Both the position numbers and the translations under genes were made by a program. Shown one piece after another: positions 29,516 through 44,147 of a stretch of 64,000 nucleotides of DNA. The notes below the pieces were generated by a model. That model saw only the letters and a program-made list of their open reading frames with translations, did no database searches and was not told where the DNA came from. The stretch comes from Collimonas arenae (GTDB lineage: Bacteria; Pseudomonadota; Gammaproteobacteria; Burkholderiales; Burkholderiaceae_D): positions 3,906,001 through 3,970,000 of the forward strand of contig NZ_CP009962.1 in the NCBI RefSeq assembly GCF_000786695.1, read 5' to 3'. The first letter of the stretch is position 1. Every line of letters starts with the position of its first letter.

Positions 29516-31570
29516 TCAAAACCGCGACAGCAAATCGATCTGGCTCACCAGCGGCGTATCGTCGCCAGGATTGGCGCGCTGGTAGCTTCCCTCGCTATCC
29601 ATATCCCAGGCCGATGCATTGTCTTGCAAATGCACCAGTAAACTCTCCTCGATCACGCGGCGCTTGAGCTTGCTGTCCAGGATCGGGAACGCCGTTTCGA
29701 TGCGTCGGAACAGGTTACGATCCATCCAATCGGCACTCGACAGCATCACATGTTCTTCGCCGTCGGCATAGAAATAAAACACACGGTGATGTTCCAGGAA
29801 GCGGCCGATGACGGAACGCACCTTGATGTTTTCCGACAGGCCAGGCACGCCCGGCTGCAAGGCGCAGACGCCACGAATCAGCAGCTGGATCTTGACCCCG
29901 GCCTGGGAGGCCAGATACAACGCTTCAATCACGGTCGGCTCCAACAAGGCGTTCATCTTGGCGATGATGTAGCCCTGCTTACCAGCTTTGACGGCGTCGA
30001 CTTCTTTCTGGATCGCATGCAGCACATTGGCATGCAAGGTGAACGGCGATTGCCATAAGCGTTTGAGCGGAACCTGCTTGCCAAAGCCGGTCAATTGCTG
30101 GAACACGTTATGCACGTCTTCGCAGATCTTGTCGTCATTGGTCATCAAGCCGAAATCGGTGTAGAGGCGCGCGGTTTTCGGATGATAATTGCCGGTGCCG
30201 AGGTGCACGTAGCGTTTCAGCTTAGTATGCTTGGCGTGGCGCTTGCGGCGCACGATCAGCAGCATCTTGGCATGTGTCTTGTAGCCGAACACGCCATACA
30301 CTACGTGGGCGCCGACCGCCTCCAGCTTGGCGGCCCAGCCGATATTAGTTTCTTCGTCGAAGCGCGCCATCAGCTCCAGCACCACCGTGACTTCCTTACC
30401 GTTCTTGGCAGCTTGCATCAACGCACTCATCAATGGCGAATCATTACCGGTGCGATAAATGGTCTGCTTGATGGCAAGTACGTCGGGATCGATCGCAGCC
30501 TGCTGCAGTAACTCCAGCACCGGCTGGAAACTTTCGTAGGGATGGTGCAGCAAAACGTCGTTCTGGTCGATGATATCGAATACCGATGCGCCTGTGACAA
30601 AGGCTTTCGGCAGCACCGGCGAATGCGGAGTGAACTTCAAATCAGGACGGTCGACCAGATCTGGCAAAGGCATCAGACGCACCAGATTGACTGCGCCGTT
30701 GACACGATAGCAGTCCGCCGGCGTCAAGCCATTTTGATTCAGCAGGCGCTGCACCAGTGAAGCCGGTGTACCATCGGCCACCTCCAGTCGCACCGCATTG
30801 CCAAGCTGACGCGTCGGCAGCTCACCCTGCAAAGCCAGCCGCAAATCGGTCACCTCATCTTCGTCGACAAACAAGTCGCTGTTGCGGGTAACGCGGAACT
30901 GATAGCAGCCACCGATCGACAATCCTGGAAACAGCTCACCGACAAAACGCTGCATGAAACTACTCAACAACACAAAGCCGTAAGGATGACCCGACAGATG
31001 TTCCGGCATCCGCACCAGGCGCGGCAGCACCCGCGGCGCCTGCACGATGGCGAGTTCGGTTTCACGGCCGAACGCATCCTTGCCGCTCAGCTTGACGGCG
31101 AAATTCAAACTCTTGTTCAGCACGCGCGGAAACGGATGGGCCGGATCGAGCCCGATCGGCGTCAGTACCGGAAGCAACTCTGTCTTGAAAAATTCATGAG
31201 CCCAGGCCGTCTGCTCCTCAGTCCACTCTGATTCCTGATAGAACGCAATACCCTCGGCATTCAGCGCCGGCAGCAACACTTCATTGAACAGCGCGTATTG
31301 GCGCGCCACCAGTTTCTGTGCACGCTCGCTGATGGTGCTGTAAGCATGCTGCAGCGACATGCCGTCGGGAGTCACGCCATCCACCGCGACCCGGATCTGC
31401 TCCTGCAGGCCAGACATGCGAATCTCCGAAAATTCGTCCAGGTTACTGCTGGTGATACAGACAAAGCGCAGCCGTTCCAGCAAGGGCACCATAGGATCTT
31501 CGGCCTGGGCCAGGACCCGCTCGTTAAAGGCAAGCACGCCGAGTTCGCGATTGAGCAATGGAAAAGTCAT
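29516..31570 (-). CDS. ppk1: Polyphosphate kinase 1
   Basis: A 684-residue membrane-associated kinase that polymerises ATP gamma-phosphate into inorganic polyphosphate. The domains appear in order: N-terminal helical domain with NRELGVLAFNERVLAQA, the head domain, and two phospholipase-D-like C domains. The autophosphorylated His is expected at His433 in GYKTHAKMLLI; the second conserved His region is FLEHHRVFYFY (about 590-600). The IKQTIYRTGNDSPL segment (about 367-380) belongs to the ATP tunnel. It is not beside ppx or the pst/pho genes here. A Pho-box-like promoter lies about 80-115 bp upstream. Confidence 0.98.
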   Translation of the reverse strand: MTFPLLNRELGVLAFNERVLAQAEDPMVPLLERLRFVCITSSNLDEFSEIRMSGLQEQIRVAVDGVTPDGMSLQHAYSTISERAQKLVARQYALFNEVLLPALNAEGIAFYQESEWTEEQTAWAHEFFKTELLPVLTPIGLDPAHPFPRVLNKSLNFAVKLSGKDAFGRETELAIVQAPRVLPRLVRMPEHLSGHPYGFVLLSSFMQRFVGELFPGLSIGGCYQFRVTRNSDLFVDEDEVTDLRLALQGELPTRQLGNAVRLEVADGTPASLVQRLLNQNGLTPADCYRVNGAVNLVRLMPLPDLVDRPDLKFTPHSPVLPKAFVTGASVFDIIDQNDVLLHHPYESFQPVLELLQQAAIDPDVLAIKQTIYRTGNDSPLMSALMQAAKNGKEVTVVLELMARFDEETNIGWAAKLEAVGAHVVYGVFGYKTHAKMLLIVRRKRHAKHTKLKRYVHLGTGNYHPKTARLYTDFGLMTNDDKICEDVHNVFQQLTGFGKQVPLKRLWQSPFTLHANVLHAIQKEVDAVKAGKQGYIIAKMNALLEPTVIEALYLASQAGVKIQLLIRGVCALQPGVPGLSENIKVRSVIGRFLEHHRVFYFYADGEEHVMLSSADWMDRNLFRRIETAFPILDSKLKRRVIEESLLVHLQDNASAWDMDSEGSYQRANPGDDTPLVSQIDLLSRF

Positions 31571-31649
31571 GTTCCGGTCAGTAGAGTGAGCTAGGGGATG
31601 GACGATTAACAGCCTGCATTATTAGCATATTACCAATAATGCCTTAACG

Positions 31650-31683
31650 ATTGTAAGGATGCAATGTGACGCGGGAATGACAA
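31650..31683 (-). promoter_or_regulatory. Candidate Pho box and -10 element of ppk1
   Basis: On the minus strand, TTGTCAT (31683-31677) and GCGTCAC (31672-31666) are 11 bp apart start to start, as in PhoB direct repeats (consensus CTGTCAT). A TACAAT -10 box (31655-31650) follows after 10 bp. The start codon of ppk1 is 80 bp further. Matches are 6/7 and 5/7; no binding data. Confidence 0.45.
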
Positions 31684-31751
31684 ACGAAAAAGGGAATGAG
31701 ATACGCAACCGCATGAAACCGGCCGCGTATACAAGGAAATTGAAAACCCGA

Positions 31752-32480
31752 TTAGCGCAAATTGCTATGGATCGGCGCCAGCATATCGTGCACGCCGTGC
31801 GTCATCAGCACCAGGAACGTTAGCAGCGCCAGATAGTAGAACGCATACGTCATCTTTACGGAAGGCTCGATGCCATAATAACGCTGGTTTTCCGGACTGC
31901 TGGCATCGTAGTTCCAGGCCCGCTTCAGTTGCGGCAAGGCGAGAATGACTACCACGATCAACAGGGGCGTCGGCTGGTAGACGAACAAGGCAAGCAGCAC
32001 AGGAACGCCGGCAAACCAGATGCGCGGAGACAGCACCGCAGTGATGCGTCCGCCGTCAAAAGGCGACATCGGGATCATGTTGAACAAGTTCAGAAAAAAA
32101 CCGGCGTACGACAAGGCAAGCAGCAGGTTACTGTCGTACTGGCGCGCGACAAAGTAGCAGACCAGCGCTCCCGCCGTACCGACCAATGGCCCAGCCAGGC
32201 CAACATAGGCTTCTGTTTCCGCATCGTGCGGCATATCTTTCAACTGGATCCAGGCACCGACAAACGGGATGAAGGTTGGTGCACCTACAGCCAGGCCGCG
32301 CCGCTGCGCGGCCAGGTAGTGCCCTGCTTCATGCACGAACAACAACAGCACGAAACCGACAGCGTAACGCCAGCCGTAGAACATCGCATAGACCGCGATC
32401 GATAGCAGCATGGTGCCGGAAGTAGTCAGGATCTTGCCAAATTTCAGGCCTCCCAACAATAGTAATAACAATTTAATCAT
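31752..32480 (-). CDS. Site-2 protease family (M50) membrane metalloprotease
   Basis: A 242-residue integral membrane protein with the zinc motif HEAGH (50-54) in FVHEAGHYLAAQRRGL and the second M50 motif NLFNMIPMSPFDGGR (131-145), whose Asp142 completes the metal site. There are about six membrane segments and no PDZ domain, so it belongs to the short FtsH-independent S2P group rather than RseP. Such proteases cut transmembrane substrates inside the membrane; the substrate is unknown. The gene begins 11 bp after the DUF2167 gene, so the two are probably one operon. Confidence 0.92.
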   Translation of the reverse strand: MIKLLLLLLGGLKFGKILTTSGTMLLSIAVYAMFYGWRYAVGFVLLLFVHEAGHYLAAQRRGLAVGAPTFIPFVGAWIQLKDMPHDAETEAYVGLAGPLVGTAGALVCYFVARQYDSNLLLALSYAGFFLNLFNMIPMSPFDGGRITAVLSPRIWFAGVPVLLALFVYQPTPLLIVVVILALPQLKRAWNYDASSPENQRYYGIEPSVKMTYAFYYLALLTFLVLMTHGVHDMLAPIHSNLR

Positions 32481-32491
32481 GGCCCGCGCCG

Positions 32492-33511
32492 TCAGGTATG
32501 ATTTGCCGGATCATTGGCTTCGGCCGGACGTTCAGCTTTAGTGTCGGGCGTAAGTTGCGGAAACTGTGGGGGCGCAAACGGCGACGATTCCGTTTCAACC
32601 GGGTTGACTGGCACCGGTGCAGGTTTCGGTTCACGCTTGAAGAATCGCTTGATGGCTGCGCCGAAGGCGAACACCGCCAGCAGGCCGATCTTGAAGAATT
32701 TTGCAGCAAAAGCCGCAATGACTGCGATCAAGCCAATTTTCTTGGCCGCTACCCCAACCACCAGAGCGGCCAGGCCATATTCCGCGACATGGTCGGTCGA
32801 CGCCTTGAAATCTGCATAACGCTTGCCTTGGTGATAGTCGATGGCAGCCAGAAGACTGTTTGCGATTGGCTTGTCCAGCGCAAGGGACGACAGGGCAGTT
32901 ACCATGGTCAAGGTGAGATAGCCGTCGCGGCCAAGCGCCAGGGTGCGATAGTTCACGCCAGTTTTATCATCATTGGCCATCGCACCCTTGTCATGAATGA
33001 TCAAGGACCATACCAGGCGATGGGTGGTCGAATCGTAGGCGGGAGCTTCCGCCCAGCCACCTACTTCAATCTCGGGGATGCCGCGCTCCTTACGACTTGC
33101 ATTCCCTTGCTCGGTCCCCTCTCGCAAGCTCTGCAACATGTCGTCGGCCTTCCAGTCGCGGGCATCGTCATCTCGAACATAGCCTTCTTTCTTGTATTCA
33201 ACGGTGGCAAACCAGTCGCCATTTTTAGCCGTGGGGACAATTACGCCCAGCAGCGACTTGTCGTCGATAACGTTGCCGACTGCACGCAAATAGCGCGCAG
33301 CGGCGGAGGACGGAACAAAGCCATAACCTTGGGGCAAAGAAAAAGTAGCCTGGTCACCGAGCGCGATCTTGCTCGGTCCTTCCACCAAAACTTTATTTGC
33401 CTCAGCCGCCGCTGCTTTAATCTCAGCCTGGATTTCGGCGGTCTGAGCTGCGCAGGTCGCCGCGATAAATGTAGCCGCAAGCGCAATCAGGATTTTTCTC
33501 AGGATATTCAT
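32492..33511 (-). CDS. DUF2167 family membrane protein
   Basis: A 339-residue envelope protein. A signal peptide occupies about 1-22 (MNILRKILIALAATFIAATCAA). The family body includes ALGDQATFSLPQGYGFVPSSAA, WFATVEYKKEGYVRDDDARDWKADDML and GGWAEAPAYDSTTHRLVWSL, followed by two or three hydrophobic stretches (about 255-300) and a Pro-rich cytoplasmic or periplasmic tail. DUF2167 proteins have no assigned function. The start at 33511 is preferred; the frame upstream to 33589 lacks similarity. It is coupled to the M50 protease gene 11 bp downstream, suggesting a shared role. The upstream gap (33512-33768) has no recognisable gene. Confidence 0.9.
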   Translation of the reverse strand: MNILRKILIALAATFIAATCAAQTAEIQAEIKAAAAEANKVLVEGPSKIALGDQATFSLPQGYGFVPSSAAARYLRAVGNVIDDKSLLGVIVPTAKNGDWFATVEYKKEGYVRDDDARDWKADDMLQSLREGTEQGNASRKERGIPEIEVGGWAEAPAYDSTTHRLVWSLIIHDKGAMANDDKTGVNYRTLALGRDGYLTLTMVTALSSLALDKPIANSLLAAIDYHQGKRYADFKASTDHVAEYGLAALVVGVAAKKIGLIAVIAAFAAKFFKIGLLAVFAFGAAIKRFFKREPKPAPVPVNPVETESSPFAPPQFPQLTPDTKAERPAEANDPANHT

Positions 33512-33768
33512 GGCTTTATCGATATTAGAGTGTCGGGAATTTTTCTGTCGATTGCCGGTAAAGGCGTCTATGGCATCCAGCAATAACACCGGCCGGGACG
33601 CATTGACTTTTCAACAAAACAGCAGCCACTTTAATATCATAAAATCGACACGTATTGCCGTATTGCATCCTAAATAATGAATGAATTCACAATATTTATT
33701 AATCCTGTACAACAGTCTACCGTTTTAGCAAACCAATTCCGGTTCGACAATTTGTGCTTGAAGCACAT

Positions 33769-33801
33769 AAAAAAAGCCTGCGGAATCAAATTCTGCAGGC
33801 T
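33769..33801 (-). terminator. Rho-independent terminator of the gntP-type gene
   Basis: On the minus strand a stem AGCCTGCAGAAT/ATTCCGCAGGCT with one mismatch pair (33801-33775) is followed by a run of seven T residues. It lies 33 bp after the permease stop. Confidence 0.88.
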
Positions 33802-33833
33802 GTATACGGTTGATGCGACAAGCTTGGGATAAA

Positions 33834-35186
33834 TCAGATCACAGTAGCCAGACCCAAAGTAAGCAGCAAAGCCACCACCGAAATAATGGTTTCGCACACC
33901 GTCCAGGTCTTGAAGGTTTCCGTCACGGTCATATTGAAGTACTCCTTCACTAGCCAGAAGCCGCCGTCATTCACATGCGACAGGATCAGCGAACCGGCGC
34001 CGGTTGCCAGTACCATCAATTCCGGCCGGACCGCGACAGTGCCGGCAGTGACGATCGGCGCCACGATACCGCAAGCGGTGGTCATGGCGACAGTCGCCGA
34101 ACCGGTGGCAACCCGGATCAGCGCCGCCACGAACCAGCCCAGCAGCAATGGTGACAGATGCGCATTATTGGCCACTTCGACAATCGCCTTGGAAACGCCG
34201 CCGTCGATCAGGATACGGCCAAAGCCGGCACCGGCGCCGACGATCAACGTGATGCCTGCAATAGGCGCCAGGCATTCAGTCGTGAATTTGAGAATGGCTT
34301 CACGGTCAAAGCCGCGTGACTTGCCAAAGGTATAGAAACTCACCAGTGTACCGATCAACAGTGCGATCACCGAATTGCCCATCAGGCGCATGAAATCATT
34401 GGCGAAGGTTTTTGGCGTGAAGAAGTAATCGGCCCAGCTGCCCAGCAGCATCAGCACGACTGGCAACAAGATGGTGGCGACAGTAATGCCAAAGCCTGGC
34501 AATTCACGAGCCGTACGCTCTTCCACAAATTGCGCAATCAATGGATTGTCAGGATTAGGAACAACGAAGCGGCTGATCAGCTTGGCAAACAGCGGACCGG
34601 CAATGATGGCCGTAGGGATGCCGACGATCAGTGCGTACATGATGGTGCGGCCAATATCGGCGTTATAGGCAGTGACGGCAAACAGCGCAGCAGGATGCGG
34701 TGGAATCAAACCATGCACCACCGACAAACCGGCAACCATCGGGATACCAACCATGATCATGTTGGTGCCGGTACGCTTGGCGACGTTAAAGGCGATTGGA
34801 ATCAGCAATACGAAACCGACTTCAAAGAATACTGGCAAGCCGACGATCAGCGCCACGACCATCATGGCCCAATGCACCCGCTTGGGACCGAAGACGCCGA
34901 TCAGCGTATTGGCGATACGTTCAGCGCCACCCGACTCGGCCATCATCTTGCCAAACATAGTGCCCAGACCGACCACCAGTGCAATATGCCCCAACGCGCC
35001 GCCGACCCCGGTTTCATATGATTTGACGATGCTCGCCATCGGCATGCCCACCACCAGGCCAAGAATCACCGATACCACGATCAGTACGATGAACGGATTC
35101 ATCTTGAACTTGGCGATCAGCACCACCAATGCGATCACTGCAATCACTGCGTAAAGCAGCAACAGATTTCCTTGAACCATCTCCAT
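33834..35186 (-). CDS. GntP-family gluconate-type permease
   Basis: A 450-residue, roughly 12-14 segment permease of the GntP family, which imports gluconate and related sugar acids (DsdX, a D-serine carrier, belongs to the same family). Typical segments are GLGTMFGKMMAESGGAERIANTL, GLPVFFEVGFVLLIPIAF, GLSVVHGLIPPHPAALFAV and GSLILSHVNDGGFWLVKEYF. An AGGAGG sequence 5 bp before the ATG at 35186 fixes the start; the preceding TTG at 35189 is less likely. It is last in the RpiR-deacylase-RidA string. Its 310-bp 5' gap is filled by two palindromic elements that may split its transcription from ridA. Confidence 0.95.
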   Translation of the reverse strand: MEMVQGNLLLLYAVIAVIALVVLIAKFKMNPFIVLIVVSVILGLVVGMPMASIVKSYETGVGGALGHIALVVGLGTMFGKMMAESGGAERIANTLIGVFGPKRVHWAMMVVALIVGLPVFFEVGFVLLIPIAFNVAKRTGTNMIMVGIPMVAGLSVVHGLIPPHPAALFAVTAYNADIGRTIMYALIVGIPTAIIAGPLFAKLISRFVVPNPDNPLIAQFVEERTARELPGFGITVATILLPVVLMLLGSWADYFFTPKTFANDFMRLMGNSVIALLIGTLVSFYTFGKSRGFDREAILKFTTECLAPIAGITLIVGAGAGFGRILIDGGVSKAIVEVANNAHLSPLLLGWFVAALIRVATGSATVAMTTACGIVAPIVTAGTVAVRPELMVLATGAGSLILSHVNDGGFWLVKEYFNMTVTETFKTWTVCETIISVVALLLTLGLATVI

Positions 35187-35208
35187 CAAATCCTCCTATG
35201 TTTGCTTA

Positions 35209-35308
35209 GAGGCTGTTGCAAACACATCTGGCGTTGTTGCTCCTCCTAGCCGTACTAATCGTACTGTCTTCGTCGGAGCGCCTAGCCATCTGTGTTTGCA
35301 ACAGCCTC
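35209..35308 (+). repeat. Dispersed palindromic element, copy 2 (100 bp)
   Basis: The ends are GAGGCTGTTGCAAACACA and TGTGTTTGCAACAGCCTC, an 18-bp perfect inverted repeat, flanked on both sides by TTA (35206-35208 and 35309-35311). The interior shares CTGGCGTTGTT, CGTACTGTCTTCGTCGGAGC and GCCTAGCCATC with the other copies. It lies 23 bp upstream of the gntP-type start codon. Confidence 0.88.
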
Positions 35309-35324
35309 TTATATTTTATAAACG

Positions 35325-35421
35325 GGACTTACGCAAAACGGCCCTGACCGCGAGCATCTCCTGACTGATCTTTGCATGATCTTCGTCGATGCGTCTTGCC
35401 ACGACGATTTTGCGTAAGTCC
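35325..35421. repeat. Second type of palindromic element with GGACTTACGCAAAA ends (97 bp)
   Basis: Perfect 14-bp terminal inverted repeats, GGACTTACGCAAAA (35325-35338) and TTTTGCGTAAGTCC (35408-35421), enclose about 70 bp without coding capacity. The ends resemble insertion-sequence termini. No other copy was noticed in this window. Confidence 0.75.
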
Positions 35422-35496
35422 TGATAAATATTCAGATCGCGATACAGCCTGGATGAATACCACACTGCACCGCCCAACGCCGTTAGCCTTGATCGA

Positions 35497-35880
35497 CTAT
35501 TTTTTATAGGCGATGCAATCTACTTCCACCTTGCAGTCGACTACCATTGCCGATTGCACGCAGGCGCGCGCAGGCGGATTGGCGCCGAAATATTCCTTGA
35601 ACACCTTGTTGAAGGATTGAAAATCGCGGGTATCGTCAAGCCAGACGCCGCAACGTACTACGTGTTCCGGACCATACCCGGCTTCCTTCAGGATCGTCAG
35701 CACGTTCTGGATAGTCTTGTGCGACTGGGCGACAATACCACCGTCGATTACTTCGCCATCCACCATCGCCACCTGGCCGGACACATACAGCCAGCCATCG
35801 GCCTCCACCGCGCGCGCGAATGGCAGATGCTGGCCGCCGGTTCCTGAACCACCTTCAACACCATATCGTTTGATTGTCAT
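35497..35880 (-). CDS. RidA family enamine/imine deaminase
   Basis: A 127-residue RidA/YjgF protein that hydrolyses reactive enamine or imine intermediates made by PLP dehydratases. The conserved Arg105 (NPPARACVQSAMV) and the C-terminal strand VEVDCIAY are present. Start MTIKRYGVEGGSGTGGQHLPFARAVEADGWLYVSGQ is typical of the subgroup found with D-aminoacylases. It starts 25 bp after the deacylase gene. In this cluster its likely partner is the PLP dehydratase-like enzyme at 38500. Confidence 0.95.
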   Translation of the reverse strand: MTIKRYGVEGGSGTGGQHLPFARAVEADGWLYVSGQVAMVDGEVIDGGIVAQSHKTIQNVLTILKEAGYGPEHVVRCGVWLDDTRDFQSFNKVFKEYFGANPPARACVQSAMVVDCKVEVDCIAYKK

Positions 35881-35905
35881 AACTACTCCTCAGAAAAAAT
35901 AAAAC

Positions 35906-37423
35906 TCAACTTGCGACGGTGGCACGAACACCAGCCTGTCGCGCCAGGAAACGCCCTGCCCGCAATTCTGTCGGCGCCTTTTCCGCACCACCAAGATAAG
36001 ACAACGCGCCATTCACCCAAACTGCTTCAATACCTTCAGCCGGCTGCATCGGATCCGCAAAAGTCGCGGCGTCACGCACCGTCTCCGGATCGAACAACAC
36101 CAGGTCGGCCCAATAGCCTTCGCTCACCAGGCCACGTTCGGTCAAGCCAAAACGCTCTGCAGACAGGCCTGTCATCTTGCGGATCGCGACAGTCAATGGA
36201 AACAGCTTTTGTTCGCGGCTGTAATGGCCGAGCACCCGCGGAAATGCGCCCCACAGGCGTGGATGCGGCAAGGGATCATTGGGCAAGCCATCCGAACCGA
36301 CCACAGTCGCCGGATGACTCAGGATGCGATTAACGTCATCGTCTTGCATGCAGTGATAGACCGCGCCTGCCGGTTGCAAGCGGCGCGCCGCTTCCATCAG
36401 GTCAACCTTCCATTCGGCGGCGATGTCAGCCAGCATCTTTCCGCCCATCGCTGGCTGCGGCTCCGACCAGGTCACCATGATGTCGATGGTATCGGTTACC
36501 TGTTTCAAATCCAGTGTGGAAGAGCTAGCGGTGTAGGGATAACAGTCGCAACCAACCGGCTGGTAACGTTGCGCCTGCTCCAGCGCCGCCAGCACTTCGC
36601 TGCTGCGGCCCCAGTTTTCGACGCCGGCGCATTTCATATGCGAGATCACCACCGGCACCCTTGCGTGTTTGCCGATGCGAAAGGCTTCATCCATGGCTTC
36701 CAGGATATCGGCGAACTCGCTACGAAGATGCGTCGCGTAGATCGCACCGGCTTCGGCCAGCGGCTCGGCCAGCGCCAGCACTTCCGAGGTCGGCGCCATG
36801 ATCGCATTGCCATAAGCAAGACCGGTGCTGAGGCCCAGCGCGCCGTGCGCAAGCGCTTCGCGCAACTGCACGCACATGGCAGCGATTTCACTATCGCTGG
36901 CGGCACGGTCGAGGCGGTCCATCTGGTTGCTGCGCAACGCCGTGTGGCCAATCAGCGCAGCCACGTTGATCGATGGCCGGGCGAGGTTGACGGCTTCTAC
37001 ATAGGAGGCGAAAGTGGGATAGCTGAACGCGCTCGCTTCGCCCAGCAGGTTCATCGGATCGGGTGGCTCTGCCTTGAGGCTGACCGGCGCAGCGCTGATG
37101 CCGCAATTGCCGACCACTACGGTGGTGACGCCTTGCGACAGCTTGGGTAACATCGCAGGCGTGCGAATGACGTTCGTGTCGTCATGCGTGTGGACGTCGA
37201 TAAAACCGGGGCTCAGCACCTTGCCTTTTCCATCGATTACCTGCCGCGCATGCCAACCGAGCAATGCGCCATCGCTGGCGATCTGCAGGATGCGGCCGCC
37301 ATCGAGCGCAACGTCGGCTGCAAACGGCGCGCTGCCGCTGCCATCGATCACGGACACGTTGAGAATCAAGGTGTCGCATTGACGTATCGCTACCTGGCCA
37401 TCCGTATTTATTTCATTGCTCAT
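35906..37423 (-). CDS. N-acyl-D-amino-acid deacylase family amidohydrolase
   Basis: A 505-residue amidohydrolase of the D-aminoacylase family. The metal site starts with GFIDVHTHDD (74-82, His78 and His80), and the family Cys107 occurs in VVGNCGIS; later ligand regions are YATHLRSE, VISHMKCAG and VVGSDGLPNDPLPHPRLWGAFPRVLG. D-aminoacylases remove N-acyl groups from N-acyl-D-amino acids; a D-configured N-acetyl amino-sugar acid such as N-acetyl-D-glucosaminate has the same reacting group. The neighbouring sugar-acid permease and KDG-kinase-like gene favour that substrate by inference. It starts 1 bp after the regulator's stop codon. Confidence 0.93.
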   Translation of the reverse strand: MSNEINTDGQVAIRQCDTLILNVSVIDGSGSAPFAADVALDGGRILQIASDGALLGWHARQVIDGKGKVLSPGFIDVHTHDDTNVIRTPAMLPKLSQGVTTVVVGNCGISAAPVSLKAEPPDPMNLLGEASAFSYPTFASYVEAVNLARPSINVAALIGHTALRSNQMDRLDRAASDSEIAAMCVQLREALAHGALGLSTGLAYGNAIMAPTSEVLALAEPLAEAGAIYATHLRSEFADILEAMDEAFRIGKHARVPVVISHMKCAGVENWGRSSEVLAALEQAQRYQPVGCDCYPYTASSSTLDLKQVTDTIDIMVTWSEPQPAMGGKMLADIAAEWKVDLMEAARRLQPAGAVYHCMQDDDVNRILSHPATVVGSDGLPNDPLPHPRLWGAFPRVLGHYSREQKLFPLTVAIRKMTGLSAERFGLTERGLVSEGYWADLVLFDPETVRDAATFADPMQPAEGIEAVWVNGALSYLGGAEKAPTELRAGRFLARQAGVRATVAS

Positions 37424-37424
37424 C

Positions 37425-38306
37425 TCAATCTCCCAACGGCTCGCGGCTGCTGCCGCCGCGATGCGTATCCAGTGTGAACTTCAGACGTCGCAGCAGTTCC
37501 TGGCTGCGGTCCTTTTGCAACAGCGCCAATTCAGTCATCAGCACATCCAGCGCCATCATCATGGCGTAGCGCGACGACGATGGCTTGAAAATAAAATCTG
37601 TTTCCATCGACTTCAGTGGCAACAGCACATCGGCCATCGCCGCCAGCGGCGAACCCAGCGCGGTGATCGCCACCAGCCGTACGCCATATTCCCTGGCCAC
37701 CGCACAACTGGCGTTCAGTTCAGCCACGTTGCCGGTGGTAGAGAGGACCAGCACCACATCGTTCTTGTCAGAGGTCGCTGCGACCATTTTCTGCAGCATG
37801 GCGTCGTGATAGGTTGCCACCGGCCGGCCCAGACGCACCAACCGGTAACGCGCCTCATCAGACAGCATAGTCGAGCCGCCTCCCATACCAAAGGCATAAA
37901 TCATGCGCGCCTGCAGTAACGCCTGCGCTGCCTGCCGCAACGTTTCCTGATTCAGCAAACTGCGATTCACTTCCAGCACCTTGTGGATATCGGCGTACAC
38001 CAGGTCGACGATTTGCGGCAGCTCATCCTCCGCAAGCGCATTCTCGGTCCGCAAAAAGCGCTGGCCGATAGCTGCCGCCTGCGCCAGATTCATCTTCAGC
38101 TCGCGCACGTCGCGGCAGCCGATAGCCTTGGCAAAACGGGTAACGCTAGCTTCGCTGACGCCGGCCTGCCTGGCCAGGGTCTGGATGCTGGCGCTGGCGG
38201 CGAACGGCAAGTCGCCCAGGATCGCCTGCGCTACCTTTTGCTCGGCCTGGCGCAACAGACTGCTGCGCTCGGCGATGCGCGACACAATATCGAAGGGATG
38301 ATTCAT
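37425..38306 (-). CDS. MurR/RpiR family transcriptional regulator
   Basis: A 293-residue regulator with an RpiR-type HTH domain (about 1-77, containing SIQTLARQAGVSEASVTRFAKAIG) and a sugar-phosphate-binding SIS domain (about 125-250, IYAFGMGGGSTMLSDEARYRLVRLG and VVLVLSTTGNVAE). The ATG at 38306 has a GGAG 4 bp upstream; the frame opens earlier at a TTG (38339). SIS regulators respond to phosphorylated sugars; HexR, a relative, responds to KDPG. A perfect palindrome lies in the divergent gap, and the gene leads the deacylase-RidA string. Confidence 0.95.
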   Translation of the reverse strand: MNHPFDIVSRIAERSSLLRQAEQKVAQAILGDLPFAASASIQTLARQAGVSEASVTRFAKAIGCRDVRELKMNLAQAAAIGQRFLRTENALAEDELPQIVDLVYADIHKVLEVNRSLLNQETLRQAAQALLQARMIYAFGMGGGSTMLSDEARYRLVRLGRPVATYHDAMLQKMVAATSDKNDVVLVLSTTGNVAELNASCAVAREYGVRLVAITALGSPLAAMADVLLPLKSMETDFIFKPSSSRYAMMMALDVLMTELALLQKDRSQELLRRLKFTLDTHRGGSSREPLGD

Positions 38307-38416
38307 GCGCTCCACGAAGTGCTCCGAGACGTGTTCCAATGGTTATACCGCAGGGCCAGTCAAAGTTATCATATCAATCACAACAAGAAAGTGATGTGAC
38401 GACAAGCTGAAATTCT

Positions 38417-38433
38417 ATGTTACTTTGTAACAT
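38417..38433. promoter_or_regulatory. Perfect 17-bp palindrome, candidate RpiR operator
   Basis: ATGTTAC TTT GTAACAT is fully symmetric and lies 67 bp before the PLP-enzyme start and 111 bp before the regulator start. It overlaps the likely -35 region of a promoter with TATAGT (38442-38447) as -10. The form resembles HexR-type sites (TGTAATTAAATTACA). Confidence 0.65.
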
Positions 38434-38499
38434 GCTTTTAATATAGTAAATTCAAGGATATGATTACGTCAAATGAATTATGACGGAGGAGAATTGAAT

Positions 38500-39801
38500 A
38501 TGAATGTTACAAACAATCACGGCAGCATCGATAGCCTGGCCATCAGCCCTTTGAACAAAGGACTTGGTGCATTTCAGCAGCCCGTGACTGCCGCAGAGAT
38601 CAAGGCGTTGAACTGGAACCTGCTGCGCGAAGACCTTAGCCTGCCTACAGCTGTGCTCTACGAAGAGCGCATGAATCACAACCTGCAGTGGATGCAGCAG
38701 TTCGTCAGCGAATACGGCGTCAAGCTGGCGCCGCACGGCAAAACCACCATGGCGCCCAAGCTGTTCGCGCGCCAACTGGCTGGCGGCGCCTGGGGCATCA
38801 CGCTGGCCACCGCGCATCAGACCAAGGTCGCCTATCAGCACGGCGTACGGCGCGTGATCATGGCCAATCAACTGGTCGGCAAACAAAACATGGCGATCAT
38901 CGCCGATTTGCTGGCGGACCAGTCGTTTGAATTCTGCTGCCTGGTCGATTCGGCCGACGGCGTCGATCAACTGGGCGCCTTCTTCCAGGCACGCAAGCAA
39001 CAATTGCATGTGCTGCTGGAACTGGGACCTGACGGCGGCCGCACCGGCATCCGCAACCCGCAACAGCAAGCCGCAGTGTTGGAAGCGCTGGCGCGCTGGC
39101 CCGACAATATCGTCCTGGCCGGCGTCGAAGTCTACGAAGGCGTGCTGAAAGAAGAAGCCGACATTCGCGGCTTTTTACAGCACGCCGTCGCCTGCACCAA
39201 GCAACTGGCCAAGGATGGCCGCTTTGCCGCCCGCACCGGAGGCGCGGCCGCACGGCCGGTAATCCTGACCGGCGCCGGTTCGGCCTGGTACGACGTGGTC
39301 GCCGAGGAATTCGCCAAGACCGAGATCGGCCTGCCGCTGGATGTGGTACTGCGGCCCGGCTGTTACCTGACGCATGACGTCGGCATCTATCGCGCGGCGC
39401 AGGCGCAAATCCAGACGCGTAATCCGATCGCCCGCAAAATGCGCACCGAGCTACAGCCAGCCTTGCAGTTGTGGGCTTACGTACAGTCGATTCCTGAAGC
39501 AAATAAAGCCATCATCGCGCTCGGCAAGCGTGACGCCGCGTTTGATGCCGGCCTGCCTTTACCTGCCGCGCATTACCGGCCCGGCAATCCCGCGCCAGAC
39601 ACAACGCCGGCGCACTGGCAACTGACCGGCATGATGGACCAGCATGCTTATCTGCAAATTAAAGAAGACGACGATATCAAAGTCGGCGACATGATCGGCT
39701 TCGACATTTCACACCCTTGCCTGACCTTCGACAAGTGGCGTCAGATTGCCGTGGTCAACCCGCAGCATCAAGTAATCGACGTGATCCAGACTTTCTTTTA
39801 A
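38500..39801 (+). CDS. Fold-type III PLP enzyme, D-serine dehydratase/D-threonine aldolase-like (amino acid deaminase)
   Basis: A 433-residue alanine-racemase-fold PLP enzyme. The PLP lysine is Lys81 in APHGKTTMAPKLF. The C-terminal D-serine dehydratase-like domain (PF14031) ends with the zinc-ligand pair His405 and Cys407 (SHPCLTFDKW), as in eukaryotic-type D-serine dehydratase. This family eliminates the beta-hydroxyl of D-3-hydroxy amino acids to give ketoacids and ammonia; D-glucosaminate has this structure and would give 2-keto-3-deoxygluconate. GGAGGAG about 8 bp before the ATG at 38500 fixes the start over the upstream frame at 38473. It is followed 31 bp later by the kinase. Confidence 0.92.
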   Translation: MNVTNNHGSIDSLAISPLNKGLGAFQQPVTAAEIKALNWNLLREDLSLPTAVLYEERMNHNLQWMQQFVSEYGVKLAPHGKTTMAPKLFARQLAGGAWGITLATAHQTKVAYQHGVRRVIMANQLVGKQNMAIIADLLADQSFEFCCLVDSADGVDQLGAFFQARKQQLHVLLELGPDGGRTGIRNPQQQAAVLEALARWPDNIVLAGVEVYEGVLKEEADIRGFLQHAVACTKQLAKDGRFAARTGGAAARPVILTGAGSAWYDVVAEEFAKTEIGLPLDVVLRPGCYLTHDVGIYRAAQAQIQTRNPIARKMRTELQPALQLWAYVQSIPEANKAIIALGKRDAAFDAGLPLPAAHYRPGNPAPDTTPAHWQLTGMMDQHAYLQIKEDDDIKVGDMIGFDISHPCLTFDKWRQIAVVNPQHQVIDVIQTFF

Positions 39802-39832
39802 TTTTGACTTCCGTACTGTAGCGAGCAAAGCA

Positions 39833-40753
39833 ATGACTATTGATATCCTGGCCTATGGCGAAGCAATGGTGGAATTCAACCAGCGCGCCCATGATGCACG
39901 CATGTATTTGCAGGGCTTCGGTGGCGACACTTCCAATTTTTGCATAGCCGCAGCCCGCCAGGGCGCGCGCAGTGGTTATATCAGTGCGCTCGGCCACGAC
40001 CATTTCGGCGACAAGCTGCGCGCACTGTGGCAGACTGAAGAGGTCGACGCAAGCCACGTGTCCAGCGATGCAAGCGCCGCTACCGGAGTGTATTTCGTTT
40101 CGCACGACCAGAGCGGTCATCACTTCGACTACCTGCGCGCGGGTTCCGCCGCCAGCCGCTACACCAGTGCGCAACTGCCGCTGGCGGTAATCGCTGCGGC
40201 CAAGGTGCTGCACCTGTCCGGCATCAGCCTGGCGATCAGCGCCTCGGCCTGCGACGCCGGCCTGGCGGCAATGGCGCATGCGCGCAAGCATGGTGTGAAG
40301 ACTTCGCTGGACACCAATCTGCGGTTGAAACTCTGGCCGCTGGAACGAGCCCAGGAAAAAATGCGCCAGGCGTTTGCGCTGTGCGATATCTGCCTGCCTA
40401 GCTGGGACGACATCAACGCCCTCACCGGCCTCGACGACCGCGATGCGATTGTCGATACGCTGCTGTCCTACGGTATCGGCCTGATCGCTTTCAAGCTCGG
40501 CGCCGAAGGCTGTTATGTCGCCACCGCCAAGGAACGGCGGCTGGTACAGCCCTACAGCGTGGAAGCGGTAGACGCCACCGGCGCCGGCGATTGCTTCGGC
40601 GGCGCCTTCATTGCACGCATAGTGGCCGGTGACGATCCATTCAAGGCCGCGCGCTACGCCAATGTCTGTGCAGCCTTGTCGACAACCGGCTACGGCGCGG
40701 TGGCACCGATTCCGCGTGCGGCGCAGGTTGAAGAAATACTGGAATTAAACTAA
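39833..40753 (+). CDS. PfkB-family sugar kinase, 2-dehydro-3-deoxygluconokinase-like
   Basis: A 306-residue ribokinase-family kinase. The substrate motif is GFGGDTSN (28-35), as in KDG kinases, and the catalytic anion-hole motif DATGAGD is at 247-253 with Asp253 as base. FDYLRAGSAASRY (about 103-115) also fits the KdgK group. It would make 2-keto-3-deoxy-6-phosphogluconate for the Entner-Doudoroff aldolase. Its stop codon TAA (40751-40753) is also the left flank of palindromic element copy 3, so that element inserted exactly at the stop. No aldolase gene is nearby. Confidence 0.92.
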   Translation: MTIDILAYGEAMVEFNQRAHDARMYLQGFGGDTSNFCIAAARQGARSGYISALGHDHFGDKLRALWQTEEVDASHVSSDASAATGVYFVSHDQSGHHFDYLRAGSAASRYTSAQLPLAVIAAAKVLHLSGISLAISASACDAGLAAMAHARKHGVKTSLDTNLRLKLWPLERAQEKMRQAFALCDICLPSWDDINALTGLDDRDAIVDTLLSYGIGLIAFKLGAEGCYVATAKERRLVQPYSVEAVDATGAGDCFGGAFIARIVAGDDPFKAARYANVCAALSTTGYGAVAPIPRAAQVEEILELN

Positions 40754-40933
40754 GAGGCTGTTGCGAACACAGATGGCTAGGCGCTCCGACGAAGACAGTA
40801 CGAGTAGTACGACAAAGAGGGTGTAGCGGGGGTTTCAGACGACATTGTCGTCTGCCCGCGGAACGGCCCGGGCTTGCAAGCCCGTGCGCGCCCTGCAAGG
40901 GCAACCAACGCCAGGTGTGTTTGCAACAGCCTC
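40754..40933 (-). repeat. Dispersed palindromic element, copy 3 (180 bp, inverted)
   Basis: Read on the minus strand it begins GAGGCTGTTGCAAACACACC and ends GTGTTCGCAACAGCCTC, with TAA flanking on both sides (40751-40753 and 40934-40936). It carries the same interior as copy 2 plus about 80 bp containing nested palindromes: CAGACGAC/GTCGTCTG (40837-40856 region), CGGGCTTGCAAGCCCG and GCCCTGCAAGGGC. It separates the kinase from a convergent MocR gene. Confidence 0.87.
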
Positions 40934-40942
40934 TAAGGCTTG

Positions 40943-42439
40943 TTACGCCACACGCACCCGGCCCGCCAGCAAATCTTCGACAATTTCTCCCAGTCGCTTT
41001 ATGCCGTACTCGATCCGAGGCGAAAACGGTTGGCCGCAACTGAGCCGCAGAAAGTGATTGAAACGGTTCGAGTTGGAAAACATCAGGCCGGGGGCGATCT
41101 TGATCCCTTCTTTCAATGCTGATTCAAACACCGCTTTCGATGAAAGTTGCGCAGGTAGTTCCACCCATAGCAAAGCACCACCATCCGGCACATTGATACG
41201 GGTGCCGACAGGGAAATGTCGCGCAATTGCGTCTGCGGTGCGAGCCCGCTGCAATCGCAAAGCGTCGCGCAAACGGCGCAGATGACGCTCGTATGCAGCC
41301 GATGCCATAAAGTCGGCGGCGGCAATCTGCGACCATTCTTCATTAGCGCGCGTATGTGCAAATTTCAGCATTTCGAGCCGCGCCTGCCAGCGGCCGCCAG
41401 CCATCCAGCCCAGCCGCATCCCCGGTGCCAGCACTTTATTCAGCGACGCACAATAAATCACATTGCCGCTGCGATCCCAGGATTTCAAAGCCCGCGCCGA
41501 GCTTGTCTCCGGCACAAGGCCGCTATACGAGTCGTCTTCGATCAGCGCCATGCCATGTTCTTGGCACAGCGCTACCAGTTGTGCCTTGTGTTCGTCGGGC
41601 ATGATGCTGCCGAGCGGATTTTGCAAGTTCGGCACCAGCACCAATGCCTTGATATCGGGATAGGTTTGCGACGCCAGTTGCAGCGCTTCTATCGATATGC
41701 CGGTACGCGGGCTGGTCGGAATTTCCAGCGCACGCATGCCCAGGCTTTCCAGCACCTGCAGCAAGCCGTAGTAAGTGGGCGACTCGACCGCGACGGTATC
41801 ACCGGCCTGCGCTACGGCACGCAGCGCCAGGTTGATCCCCTCAATGCAGCCGTGGGTGACGATCACCTCTTCCGGCGCCATCTTGATGCCGATTGCCAGG
41901 CTGCGCTTGGCGAGAACTTGCCGAAAGGCTGGATTGCCGCGATGGGACATCATGCTGGTCAAGACCTGTGGCTGCTTGCGCAAGGTACGGATTGCCGCGT
42001 TTTTCAGAGCCTCCACTGCATACAACTCGGGGGCACAACTGGCGCCGCTCAAATCAAGCGTCACGCTGGCGCCATGTCCCTGGGCGATAACTCCTGAGAC
42101 CCGCTCATGGATCCCTGCATACTGCGCTGACATGAGGGCCGGCATGGTTGACAGATTCGGCTCTTCCGCCAGCGCCATGCGCCGTGCGGGCAACACGAAA
42201 TAGCCAGAGCGTGGCCGCGCTTCCAGCCAGCCGTCTTGCTCCAGGTAACGCAGCGCTTGCAACGCGGTCGACAAGCTGACCTGGTGTTGCTGCATCAGGT
42301 CGCGCACCGAGGGCATACGCTCGCCCGGCGCCAGCGTATTGGATTGAATCGCCGCTAGGTAATGCCCGGCCAACTGGCGGTATAGCAACTGCGGCGTAAC
42401 AGATTGGGACGGCGAAAGCGACAAGGGAGATTTTCTCAT
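40943..42439 (-). CDS. MocR-type GntR regulator with aminotransferase domain
   Basis: A 498-residue fusion of a GntR winged-helix domain (about 15-82, LAPGERMPSVRDLMQQHQVSLSTALQALRYLEQDG) to a fold-type I aminotransferase domain. The PLP-binding lysine is Lys335 in ASLNKVLAPGMRLGW; NLQNPLG (about 271-277) and EDDSYSGL (301-308) also follow the fold. MocR proteins use PLP or amino compounds as effectors and often control a divergent gene, here the small DUF2917-like gene at 42629 with a 189-bp gap. The target is unknown. Confidence 0.93.
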   Translation of the reverse strand: MRKSPLSLSPSQSVTPQLLYRQLAGHYLAAIQSNTLAPGERMPSVRDLMQQHQVSLSTALQALRYLEQDGWLEARPRSGYFVLPARRMALAEEPNLSTMPALMSAQYAGIHERVSGVIAQGHGASVTLDLSGASCAPELYAVEALKNAAIRTLRKQPQVLTSMMSHRGNPAFRQVLAKRSLAIGIKMAPEEVIVTHGCIEGINLALRAVAQAGDTVAVESPTYYGLLQVLESLGMRALEIPTSPRTGISIEALQLASQTYPDIKALVLVPNLQNPLGSIMPDEHKAQLVALCQEHGMALIEDDSYSGLVPETSSARALKSWDRSGNVIYCASLNKVLAPGMRLGWMAGGRWQARLEMLKFAHTRANEEWSQIAAADFMASAAYERHLRRLRDALRLQRARTADAIARHFPVGTRINVPDGGALLWVELPAQLSSKAVFESALKEGIKIAPGLMFSNSNRFNHFLRLSCGQPFSPRIEYGIKRLGEIVEDLLAGRVRVA

Positions 42440-42628
42440 GGCGATGGTTGAATTGCTTTAGTGTGAATCATTGGCGGAAAACGAAACAGATACAGATTAA
42501 AGCAAAATGGACGATAACAGATCTGCCAAAATCCTATCTGTTGCGCCACGTTCAGGGCATCTCTGTGCCTGTTTCGATAGTACGAGGGGGATTACGCTGG
42601 AGCCATCTCTTTGAACAAGGAAAACGCG

Positions 42629-42985
42629 ATGAACTCCCCCGACAGCAACACCGCCAGGATCCAGCTTGGCCATGATCGCAGCAATATGTTCTATGCCAGC
42701 CGCGGCACAGCCATCGTATCTTTGCAGGGCAATATCCTGATCGCCGAAGCGGCCAGCCACCTGGTCGATATCACCGTCGCCAACCGCGCCCTGATCGCCG
42801 AGGGAGATTGCCATGTGATACAGCGCGGTGGCTGGGTCCGCTTGTGTGCGCAAGGAGGCGGTAAGGCGACCGGCCTGATAATTTTACCGACAAGAAATTT
42901 TCTAGGCTCGCTCCTGGCCCGCTGGCTACGTCGGGGCAACACCTCTACACATCCGGCAAACCGGACTGAGGCCATTGAATCATAG
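42629..42985 (+). CDS. Small DUF2917-like protein
   Basis: A 118-residue protein with a central beta-rich stretch (YASRGTAIVSLQGNILIAEA and GDCHVIQRGGWVRLCAQGGGKA) reminiscent of DUF2917, a small cupin-like fold common in Burkholderiales, and a basic C-terminal tail. An AAGGA precedes the ATG at 42629 by 7 bp; the frame opens at a TTG at 42611. It is divergent from the MocR gene and is followed about 107 bp later by chaC. Function unknown; the family match is from memory of the pattern. Confidence 0.7.
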   Translation: MNSPDSNTARIQLGHDRSNMFYASRGTAIVSLQGNILIAEAASHLVDITVANRALIAEGDCHVIQRGGWVRLCAQGGGKATGLIILPTRNFLGSLLARWLRRGNTSTHPANRTEAIES

Positions 42986-43092
42986 ACAATCTACGGCAAA
43001 CAGTGTGCCAACTGCTACATATCCAAGGGTTGGCACGCCGCGATACAGCAAAGCACTTGTTGCAAAACCCCGATCTGGCTTATTCTGTACGC

Positions 43093-43779
43093 ATGAGTAT
43101 CACGCGTGAAGATCTTGAACAGGACCGCCTCCGAAGCATCCTGGATAACACTCCTATTGCAGCTGCCCTGCTGTCAGAAGCAGCGCTGGAAGCCTCGTGG
43201 CGCGCCGCTCTAGCGTCGCTGCCGGATCCCAATGGCGATGTCTGGCTATTCGGCTACGGCTCGCTGATCTGGAATCCGATGGTGGAGTACAGCGAACGGC
43301 TGCCGGCCATGCTATATGGCTATCACCGTGGCTTCTACCTGTACTCCCGCATCAACCGCGGCACCTGGGATAACCCGGGACTGGTGCTAGGCCTGGATCG
43401 CGGCGGCTCCTGCCAAGGCATCGCCTTCCGGATTCCCGCCATCAGCATAGAAACCGAACTGAAGATGTTATGGCGCCGCGAAATGCTGACCGGCGCCTAC
43501 ATCCCGCGCTGGCTACCCATGCAACTCAACGGCAAAACCGGCCCCCGCATCAAAGCCCTGGCCTTCGTCATGAACCGCCAGCACGAAAGCTACGCAGGCC
43601 GTCTGCCAGACCCGACAGTAGTGTCCTATTTACGCGATGCGTGCGGCCTATATGGGCCGGCCAGAGATTATTTACGGCATACGCTAGAGGGACTACTGAA
43701 AGAAGGCTTCGAAGATCCATATCTAGCAAGACTATGGGCGCAGCTAGAATCCCGCCAAAATCCTTCAACAGAAAAATAA
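43093..43779 (+). CDS. chaC: ChaC-type gamma-glutamylcyclotransferase
   Basis: A 228-residue glutathione-specific gamma-glutamylcyclotransferase that cleaves glutathione to 5-oxoproline and Cys-Gly. The signature WLFGYGSLIWNP is at 51-62 with the YGSL substrate loop at 55-58, and the catalytic Glu is expected in the LKMLWRREMLTGAY segment. Start MSITREDLEQDRL at 43093 is chosen; the open frame goes back to 43003. The family in E. coli is named from a Ca2+/H+ antiporter neighbour, absent here. Confidence 0.93.
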   Translation: MSITREDLEQDRLRSILDNTPIAAALLSEAALEASWRAALASLPDPNGDVWLFGYGSLIWNPMVEYSERLPAMLYGYHRGFYLYSRINRGTWDNPGLVLGLDRGGSCQGIAFRIPAISIETELKMLWRREMLTGAYIPRWLPMQLNGKTGPRIKALAFVMNRQHESYAGRLPDPTVVSYLRDACGLYGPARDYLRHTLEGLLKEGFEDPYLARLWAQLESRQNPSTEK

Positions 43780-43794
43780 TCCCACCACCGGTTT

Positions 43795-43842
43795 TGAAGT
43801 TGATTTTGACGTTGAAGTGGAAGTTGACGTTGCTTTTGAAGT
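43795..43842 (+). repeat. Degenerate hexanucleotide tandem repeat
   Basis: Eight consecutive hexamers related to TGAAGT: TGAAGT, TGATTT, TGACGT, TGAAGT, GGAAGT, TGACGT, TGCTTT, TGAAGT. It starts 16 bp after the chaC stop codon. Confidence 0.75.
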
Positions 43843-43861
43843 GCTCCGCATTGAGAACTTG

Positions 43862-43953
43862 CCAAAAGAGGCGCGTGACGGTCGGGAATTGTGAGACACA
43901 TGTCTGAGCGTAGCGAGTTTGTGTCTCACCCGACTGGCACGCGCCTCTTTTGG
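43862..43953. repeat. 92-bp nested inverted repeat (cruciform-forming)
   Basis: Outer arms are perfect 16-bp repeats, CCAAAAGAGGCGCGTG (43862-43877) and CACGCGCCTCTTTTGG (43938-43953). Inside are GTGAGACACA (43891-43900) and TGTGTCTCAC (43920-43929) around a GAGCGTAGCGAG loop. The structure could terminate chaC transcription; the loop motif looks like a dispersed betaproteobacterial repeat. Confidence 0.8.
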
Positions 43954-44147
43954 GGACCTGACCGCAGGGAAGGCAAGGGCTTTGCGATCGCCTTCTTTTT
44001 GGTTATGTTTTCTTGCGCCCGGCCAGGGGGCGAAGCAAGAAAAAGTGACTAGCTGCCGGGCTACCCCCGGCTTGCATCCACGGAGTAGCAACCGTTTCAA
44101 GTAACGACGACCGAACATCAAATACCAACGCACGTACTCCGTGGCAC
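43954..44147. other. Repeat-rich non-coding stretch between chaC and leuA
   Basis: Contains TTTTCTTGC (44008-44016) facing GCAAGAAAA (44035-44043), a GCCGGG/CCCGGC hairpin near 44055-44071, and CCACGGAGTA (44078-44087) facing TACTCCGTGG (44135-44144). A 61-codon frame (43919-44104) passes through these palindromes and is judged not to be a gene. Confidence 0.6.

Follow-up and report, generated by a model that had tools for sequence, protein, structure and literature searches.

The six-gene locus at positions 33834-40753 of the 64,000-nt stretch of Collimonas arenae DNA analysed here (the window, whose numbering is used throughout) raises the question of which compound its products degrade: a D-amino acid, as several family names suggest, or a sugar acid. 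We consider it very probable that these genes form a self-contained catabolic module of the ong type for N-acetylglucosaminate (GlcNAc1A), the C1-oxidised end sugar of chitin that arises from AA10 action. The ong cluster of Pseudoalteromonas prydzensis ACAM 620 has been shown experimentally to convert GlcNAc1A via glucosaminate and 2-keto-3-deoxygluconate (KDG) to 2-keto-3-deoxy-6-phosphogluconate (KDPG) (PMC9537276), and this is the route which a sequence-only reading of the window had mentioned as described in marine bacteria. The chemistry proposed in that reading, namely deacetylation, deamination by a pyridoxal phosphate (PLP) enzyme and phosphorylation by a KDG kinase, matches the published one and finds support in sequence, active-site residues, a palindrome and strain phenotypes.

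Counterparts of the ong Genes and Conservation of the Locus

All six open reading frames (ORFs) are present at 33834-40753 in the ORF list of the window, in two divergent strings as previously described, and Pfam is concordant with the family named earlier for each of them (GntP_permease 536 bits; Ribonuc_L-PSP 88; Amidohydro_3 139; HTH_6 56 plus SIS 60 for the RpiR regulator; D-ser_dehydrat 70 plus Ala_racemase_N 33 for the PLP enzyme; PfkB 184). The features, in which PpOngB denotes the OngB deacetylase of P. prydzensis, are:

33834..35189, minus strand: GntP-family permease, proposed GlcNAc1A importer (GntP_permease Pfam match, position)
35497..35880, minus strand: RidA-family protein of 127 aa, OngD counterpart (identity to the RidAs of ong clusters)
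35906..37423, minus strand: amidohydrolase of the N-acyl-D-amino-acid-deacylase type, predicted GlcNAc1A deacetylase, OngB counterpart (PpOngB score and pocket residues)
37425..38339, minus strand: MurR/RpiR-type repressor, OngR counterpart (HTH_6 plus SIS; identity to OngR)
38418..38432, no strand: proposed OngR operator TGTTACTTTGTAACA (palindrome conservation)
38443..38472, minus strand: likely sigma-70 promoter of the repressor-deacetylase-RidA-permease operon (alignment read by eye)
38500..39801 (listed ORF 38473-39801), plus strand: fold III PLP enzyme, predicted glucosaminate deaminase, OngC counterpart (identity, motifs)
39833..40753, plus strand: PfkB sugar kinase, proposed KDG kinase (PfkB Pfam match; KDG/KDGal kinase model best)

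The gene-by-gene comparison was made with Pseudoalteromonas sp. CF6-2 (L071), PpOngB alone being compared from strain ACAM 620. The annotated CF6-2 order (TonB receptor, then PLP deaminase, RpiR, D-aminoacylase, RidA, SSS symporter, sugar kinase and GH20) agrees with the published P. prydzensis operons (PMC9537276). Identities between window and CF6-2 proteins amount to 66% for RidA, 55% for the deacetylase, 48% for the repressor, 44% for the PLP enzyme and 27% for the kinase, and none of the window proteins matches the CF6-2 symporter or GH20 protein; the window therefore has four clear counterparts, a PfkB kinase of the same general kind and a permease that is a replacement. Measured against the published criterion for an ong cluster, which asks for four or more ong homologues occurring together at >30% identity and E < 1e-5, counterparts of OngB, OngC, OngD and OngR co-occur here at 44-66% identity and E <= 1e-50 versus CF6-2. 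With CF6-2 OngC as query, the window gene was the sole match in the genome (46%). An orthologue of the SSS symporter OngIT, likewise sought in the genome with the CF6-2 query, was rejected, the best match reaching 29% over 170 residues; the cluster has GntP instead, while an SSS symporter is present in the Klebsiella, Vibrio and Pseudoalteromonas regions examined. As for a TonB receptor, which was not sought genome-wide, positions 31000-44000 hold no ORF of receptor size except one of 684 aa, presumably a polyphosphate kinase.

The repressor and deacetylase genes abut (37425/37423), 25 bp separate the deacetylase from the RidA gene, and 307 bp containing two palindromic repeat elements lie between the RidA and permease genes. 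Seventeen loci were defined by deacylase matches in named genomes of Collimonas, Glaciimonas, Herbaspirillum and Cupriavidus basilensis. Six genes in the same divergent layout were found in 15 of them (with the deacylase match split in two in L022), and the six-gene arrangement is therefore not a product of chance; the loci L019 and L023 are fragments of contigs and hold three and four of these genes, respectively. Each of five further same-genus genomes (L080, L083, L085, L090, L091) gave six matches, that to the PLP enzyme containing a stop in L083. In L085:7891-8768 (genome G143) the RpiR match consists of two overlapping pieces with a stop and looks interrupted, and the AA10 match of this genome contains a stop as well. 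The window deacylase is 93% identical to its C. humicola counterpart. A MocR/PdxR-type regulator at 40943-42439 was rejected as a cluster member: it lies near the kinase end in 11 of the 17 loci and is absent from L013, L021 and L022, its presence being undecidable in L017, L019 and L023, which end too early.

The Deacetylase Pocket

Against solved structures, the window deacylase scored 688 bits with 9g5m, 543 with PpOngB, 460 with the D-aminoacylase of Alcaligenes faecalis and 395 with N-acyl-D-glutamate deacylase, so that PpOngB outscores every D-aminoacylase chain. PDB entry 9g5m was deposited as 'amidohydrolase family protein', and its printed start matches, by eye, the deacylase of a Klebsiella ong-type cluster (L069). 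Identities are 53% to PpOngB, 55% to the CF6-2 deacetylase, 64% to the Klebsiella protein and 49% to the A. faecalis enzyme (1m7j).

For PpOngB, both the GlcNAc1A-binding residues and the positions distinguishing GlcNAc1A deacetylases from D-aminoacylases have been reported (PMC12017989). At 20 of the 21 mapped positions the window protein is identical, the exception being Gly348, which corresponds to Cys358; a residue printed as Cys79 in PMC12017989 is Pro in both the printed chain and the window, and was counted among the 20. The conserved positions comprise the full set of 13 with metal, catalytic or acetamido/carboxylate roles, and six of another seven in the pocket (A193, E226, A256, S290, S292, Q298); the remaining one, G348, is Cys also in the protein from the Vibrio ong region. 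D-aminoacylases are characterised by Thr292, Leu or Arg at 298 and hydrophobic residues at 193 and 256 (PMC12017989), a signature from which the window deacylase departs at every position, with Ser and Gln at 292 and 298 and Ala at both 193 and 256. The diagnostic pair, which D-aminoacylases lack, corresponds to Ser302 and Gln308 in window numbering, and S292 and Q298 recur in 120 of 120 aligned homologues (the best 120 of 7998 matches). Together with the small A193 and A256, the GlcNAc1A pocket is thus present. In a 25-row tree, the window deacylase falls into a 17-row set with PpOngB, split with support of 100/99 from D-aminoacylases and the sister proteins described below. Given residues whose role was shown in PpOngB, GlcNAc1A would be the substrate of the window enzyme. 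A Pantoea plasmid carries a deacylase 58% identical to that of the window (L073:8992-10437), with Thr292, Arg298 and Met348, near D-amino-acid genes and an ABC transporter.

PLP Enzyme, RidA, Kinase and Permease

Lys81, His405 and Cys407, the PLP-enzyme residues named by the sequence-only reading, are numbered correctly provided that Met10 of the listed ORF, the ATG at 38500, is the translation start; just upstream of this ATG, GGAGGA was read by eye. In the long ORF the lysine of HGKT is residue 90 and the His and Cys of SHPC are residues 414 and 416, the motifs being kept. The window RidA is 66% identical to those of both the CF6-2 and the Klebsiella cluster, and the arginine of its PPAR motif is common to all three. 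RidA hydrolysis of the dehydration product, as proposed earlier, is plausible; yet the published OngC yields KDG and ammonia without RidA in vitro, whereas the RidA gene is needed in vivo, in a role called unknown (PMC9537276).

The best NCBIfam model for the kinase is the KDG/KDGal kinase (190 bits, below the cut-off of 400). In Cupriavidus metallidurans, a KDPG aldolase gene above the curated eda cut-off follows the kinase gene. The permease reaches 497 bits with TIGR00791 (cut-off 292.75), and remains below the cut-offs of the DsdX and gluconate equivalogs. GntP occurs at the same position in related loci with 74-98% identity and stands together with OngB in Collimonas, Glaciimonas, Herbaspirillum and Cupriavidus; even in Gemmatirosa, which belongs to another phylum, a GntP gene (68%) lies directly beside and divergent from an OngB gene (65%).

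Divergent Promoter, Candidate Operator and Repeat Elements

The divergent promoter region of the window was aligned with those of 16 related loci. Fifteen of the 16 have an exact TGTTA-N5-TAACA and L008 a copy with one change; the sequence reads TGTTACAAAGTAACA in Collimonas and TGTTAGTAAATAACA in most Herbaspirillum loci. Promoter elements TTGACG and TACTAT, 18 bp apart, were discerned by eye with the operator 10 bp downstream; a similar promoter towards the repressor operon lies upstream of the palindrome in most loci, L013 not among them. A survey of 19 regions comprised 12 same-genus and 7 other regions, seven of the former apparently being among the named loci already counted and several of the 19 coming from the same genomes as the promoter alignment. 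The exact palindrome was present in 13 (10 of 12 same-genus, 3 of 7 other); in the g15 regions L054-L057 it shows two changes to TGTTACNNNGTAACA.

In CF6-2, the interval from the TonB receptor gene to ongC contains two exact copies of TGTTA-N5-TAACA, where 0.001 would be expected from its base composition. These sites correspond to the receptor and ongC promoters that are repressed by OngR in P. prydzensis (PMC9537276). The C. metallidurans region contains one palindrome site, and Klebsiella has TGGTACTTTGTACCA upstream of the RpiR gene; the window repressor is 48% identical to the RpiR protein of this Klebsiella cluster. In the 5.64-Mb genome, TGTTACNNNGTAACA occurs at up to one mismatch in one place, which is this locus, and 20-kb stretches around the genome's lytic polysaccharide monooxygenase (LPMO) and chitinase genes gave no operator match. 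A wider OngR regulon including LPMO or chitinase control was accordingly discarded as unsupported, because no second site was found in the genome at up to one mismatch.

The repeats within and next to the cluster include one further feature:

35209..35308, no strand: palindromic repeat element with GAGGCTGTTGCAAAC arms, outside the pathway (RidA-GntP gap)

Elements with GAGGCTGTTGC arms lie at 35209-35308, 40754-40933 and 8502-8581 of the window, one thus in the RidA-GntP gap and one immediately past the kinase stop codon. Exact copies of the 15-base arm GAGGCTGTTGCAAAC number 59 across the genome, and they often form inverted pairs with a spacing of about 85 or 164 bases. Another palindromic element, with GACTTACGCAAAA arms, occupies 35326-35420 in the RidA-GntP gap and was not seen in the C. 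humicola gap.

Chitin-Related Genes and Growth Phenotypes

Genes of the two kinds that the sequence-only reading had suggested looking for, KDPG aldolase and AA10 monooxygenase, are both present in the genome. The single AA10 protein is a CBP21-like LPMO (233 bits) whose His22 aligns with residue 1 of mature CBP21, the signal peptide being judged by eye. Of three GH18 matches above cut-off, two are weak; the third, at 296 bits, is strong and lies near genes for GH3, an amidohydrolase and a SIS-domain protein, a region that looks like a hydrolytic chitin cluster. GH3 occurs twice, as do KDPG-aldolase-family genes (242 and 101 bits).

In a sample of 392 family genomes, 48 carry a close deacetylase (at least 75% identity, a threshold set in this analysis). 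An AA10 match was obtained in 14 of these 48 and in 18 of the 344 others (Fisher p = 2.5e-6, uncorrected for kinship), a few of the AA10 matches being fragments or containing a stop. Among the five deacetylase-bearing g15 genomes, two (G054 and G077) have an AA10 gene adjacent to the cluster: the kinase gene is missing there, a ChaC gene adjoins the PLP gene, and the AA10 gene lies on the far side of the ChaC gene. GbpA domains are present in the AA10 protein of G077; that of G054 is of the same length.

Biolog GN2 data for ten Collimonas strains list D-glucosaminic acid as positive in nine, D-serine in one and N-acetylglucosamine in all ten (PMC11288634).

Sister Clusters with an Altered Pocket

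Clusters L062:164-10345, L063:189-11221 and L061:3000-10697 (family genera g32, g42 and g40) encode OngB-like deacylases that are 51-55% identical to that of the window but differ from it in the pocket (Phe193, Thr292, Tyr298, Gln348), together with an OngC-like PLP enzyme (40-41%), RidA and ABC or MFS transporter genes. They further contain a DGOK-type 2-keto-3-deoxygalactonokinase (L062, L063), a KDPG-type aldolase (L061, L063) and an SDR dehydrogenase (L062, L063). These clusters resemble catabolic pathways for a different acetamido sugar, oxidised intracellularly, perhaps N-acetylgalactosamine via galactosaminate. Beside the SDR gene, L062:3316-4572 and L063:4679-5875 encode proteins of about 400 aa that are alike by eye; that of L062 gave no Pfam match at E 0.01 and a best E of 0.08 against solved structures. 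In the same-genus genome G175, L064:8948-16891 has a second OngB-like gene (52-53%; Tyr193/Thr292/Tyr298) beside RpiR regulator and ABC sugar-transporter genes, on a contig whose length is not that of the contig with the ong cluster of G175.

Discussion

According to the ong-type reading, GlcNAc1A would be imported by the GntP permease and deacetylated to glucosaminate by the OngB-like zinc amidohydrolase. The OngC-like PLP enzyme would then remove ammonia to yield KDG, with RidA probably aiding the enamine/imine step, and the PfkB enzyme would phosphorylate KDG to KDPG, which an aldolase encoded elsewhere in the genome may split into pyruvate and glyceraldehyde 3-phosphate. OngR would act as repressor at a single palindromic operator located between the two divergent operons, and would be released in the presence of GlcNAc1A, by analogy with published deletion and reverse-transcription quantitative PCR work (PMC9537276). 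Gene content, conservation, active-site residues, the promoter palindrome and the presence of LPMO, chitinase and aldolase genes were established directly in this analysis; the substrate of every protein, the role of RidA, the inducer and the oligomer-to-monomer route are what we infer.

Several observations weigh against this picture. The kinase is only 27% identical to its CF6-2 counterpart and falls below every curated cut-off compared, and its gene is absent from the locus in 4 of the 19 surveyed regions (L054, L055, L056, L068). GlcNAc1A as the permease substrate is suggested by gene position, and the 19-kb Gemmatirosa region holds GntP and OngB only, with no match to the PLP enzyme, RidA or the kinase. 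Neither this region nor the Vibrio ong region has a palindrome match. A backwards control pattern, itself a palindrome, occurs in 13 places in the genome at up to one mismatch (13 on each strand); since such matches arise by chance, the case for the operator rests on conservation and not on genome counts, and the uniqueness of TGTTACNNNGTAACA argues only against further sites. In the 25-row tree, OngB as one clade is poorly supported (49/19), because the Pantoea protein with Thr292/Arg298 groups among the OngB rows. No GH20 match was found in the genome, and release of GlcNAc1A from oligomers would thus need GH3 or another enzyme. Finally, the Biolog panel covers the deacetylated acid, D-glucosaminate, and not GlcNAc1A, and strain Cal35 is negative for D-glucosaminate as well as for D-gluconate (PMC11288634), despite a deacetylase in 14 of 15 sampled same-genus genomes.

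The family names would fit a D-amino-acid route with an N-acyl-D-amino acid deacylase, a D-serine/D-threonine deaminase, a DsdX-like GntP permease and an unrelated kinase. The closest solved structure to the PLP enzyme is indeed a 'D-serine deaminase' (3gwq, 596 bits), the published OngC deaminates D-serine and D-threonine in vitro (PMC9537276), and the permease scores 328 bits with the DsdX model. This score is far below the cut-off of 618, however, and the deacylase pocket (Ala193, Ala256, Ser292, Gln298) is of the GlcNAc1A deacetylase type; with the N-acetyl-D-amino acids tried, no activity of PpOngB could be detected (PMC12017989). With a KDG-type kinase in the cluster, joined in C. metallidurans by the KDPG aldolase, and D-serine use in one of ten strains (PMC11288634), we regard a D-amino-acid route as highly improbable. 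Equally little credit is due to a 2-acetamido aldonic acid of other epimeric form as the true substrate. Sister clusters with an altered pocket do exist, so that the family probably varies in substrate, but the residues contacting the C3-C6 hydroxyls in PpOngB (E226, S290, S292, Q298) are identical in the window deacylase, and glucosaminate use is on record in the genus (PMC11288634).

Compatible with the chemistry of the ong-type reading is a further possibility, to which we assign an appreciable yet minor chance: the module may serve environmental glucosaminate or GlcNAc1A, from scavenging or periplasmic sugar oxidation, and be little tied to the bacterium's own chitin oxidation. In its favour, 34 of the 48 deacetylase-bearing family genomes have no AA10 match, so many carriers must obtain the sugar acid elsewhere; the cluster comprises neither hexosaminidase nor TonB receptor; operator matches are missing near the LPMO and chitinase genes and elsewhere in the genome within the limits given above; and D-glucosaminate itself is utilised in the genus (PMC11288634). 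A tie to own chitin oxidation is indicated by the uneven distribution of AA10 with and without the cluster, by the adjacent AA10 genes in g15 and by the LPMO and chitinase genes of this genome. Because of the 34 carriers without an AA10 match, we rejected co-occurrence as settling the source of the substrate. On balance we lean slightly towards the view that GntP carries GlcNAc1A and that the compact six-gene module is widespread among Collimonas, Glaciimonas, Herbaspirillum and Cupriavidus. These bacteria, most of them lacking their own LPMO, would then live on sugar acid set free when other organisms oxidise chitin.

A betaproteobacterial version with GntP, RidA and RpiR had been put forward as new or little described. 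GntP does differ; RidA and RpiR are not new, because both are already part of the published cluster, and the betaproteobacterium Achromobacter piechaudii is listed with a complete pathway in the legend to Fig. 6 (PMC9537276). The window is set apart by the GntP permease, the divergent kinase and a cluster without hexosaminidase or TonB receptor, whereas the chemistry and the repressor are known. The main text of PMC9537276, supplements being outside our scope, mentions neither GntP nor Burkholderia, and our searches of the open-licence literature yielded no publication describing a GntP version or the route in Collimonas; GntP substrates were not searched for. As the oxidative chitin route is known mainly from marine Gammaproteobacteria, a conserved version with an importer of its own in Collimonas, Herbaspirillum, Glaciimonas and Cupriavidus would extend it to soil- and plant-associated bacteria. 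It would also provide a testable substrate for numerous genes whose current annotation is D-aminoacylase, amino acid deaminase or GntP permease, and a candidate operator for OngR, whose binding site is not given in the parts of PMC9537276 considered here.

Comparison with Known Systems

The ong cluster of P. prydzensis and CF6-2 shares with the window an RpiR repressor, a D-aminoacylase-like deacetylase, a fold III PLP deaminase, a 127-aa RidA and a PfkB kinase; common to CF6-2 and the window are the order repressor-deacetylase-RidA and, by sequence, what appears to be the same operator type at the promoter. In contrast to the marine cluster, the window has GntP in place of the SSS symporter OngIT, a divergent kinase and a smaller gene set without the GH20 hexosaminidase OngA and the TonB receptor, and its PLP enzyme and kinase genes stand apart from the others as a divergent pair. 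The Klebsiella cluster likewise has RidA, RpiR and a PLP deaminase divergent from the deacetylase, and the deacetylases are 64% identical; it differs in its SSS symporter and in the annotated 2-dehydro-3-deoxygalactonokinase and linked 2-dehydro-3-deoxy-6-phosphogalactonate aldolase. The D-aminoacylase of A. faecalis (1m7j) resembles the window deacylase in fold family, metal site and 49% identity, but has Phe193, Met256 and Thr292 and no Gln at 298. PpOngB (PDB 9kb1/9kb3; PMC12017989), at 53% identity, differs in Gly348 (Cys358 in the window), while the reported sugar contacts are kept.

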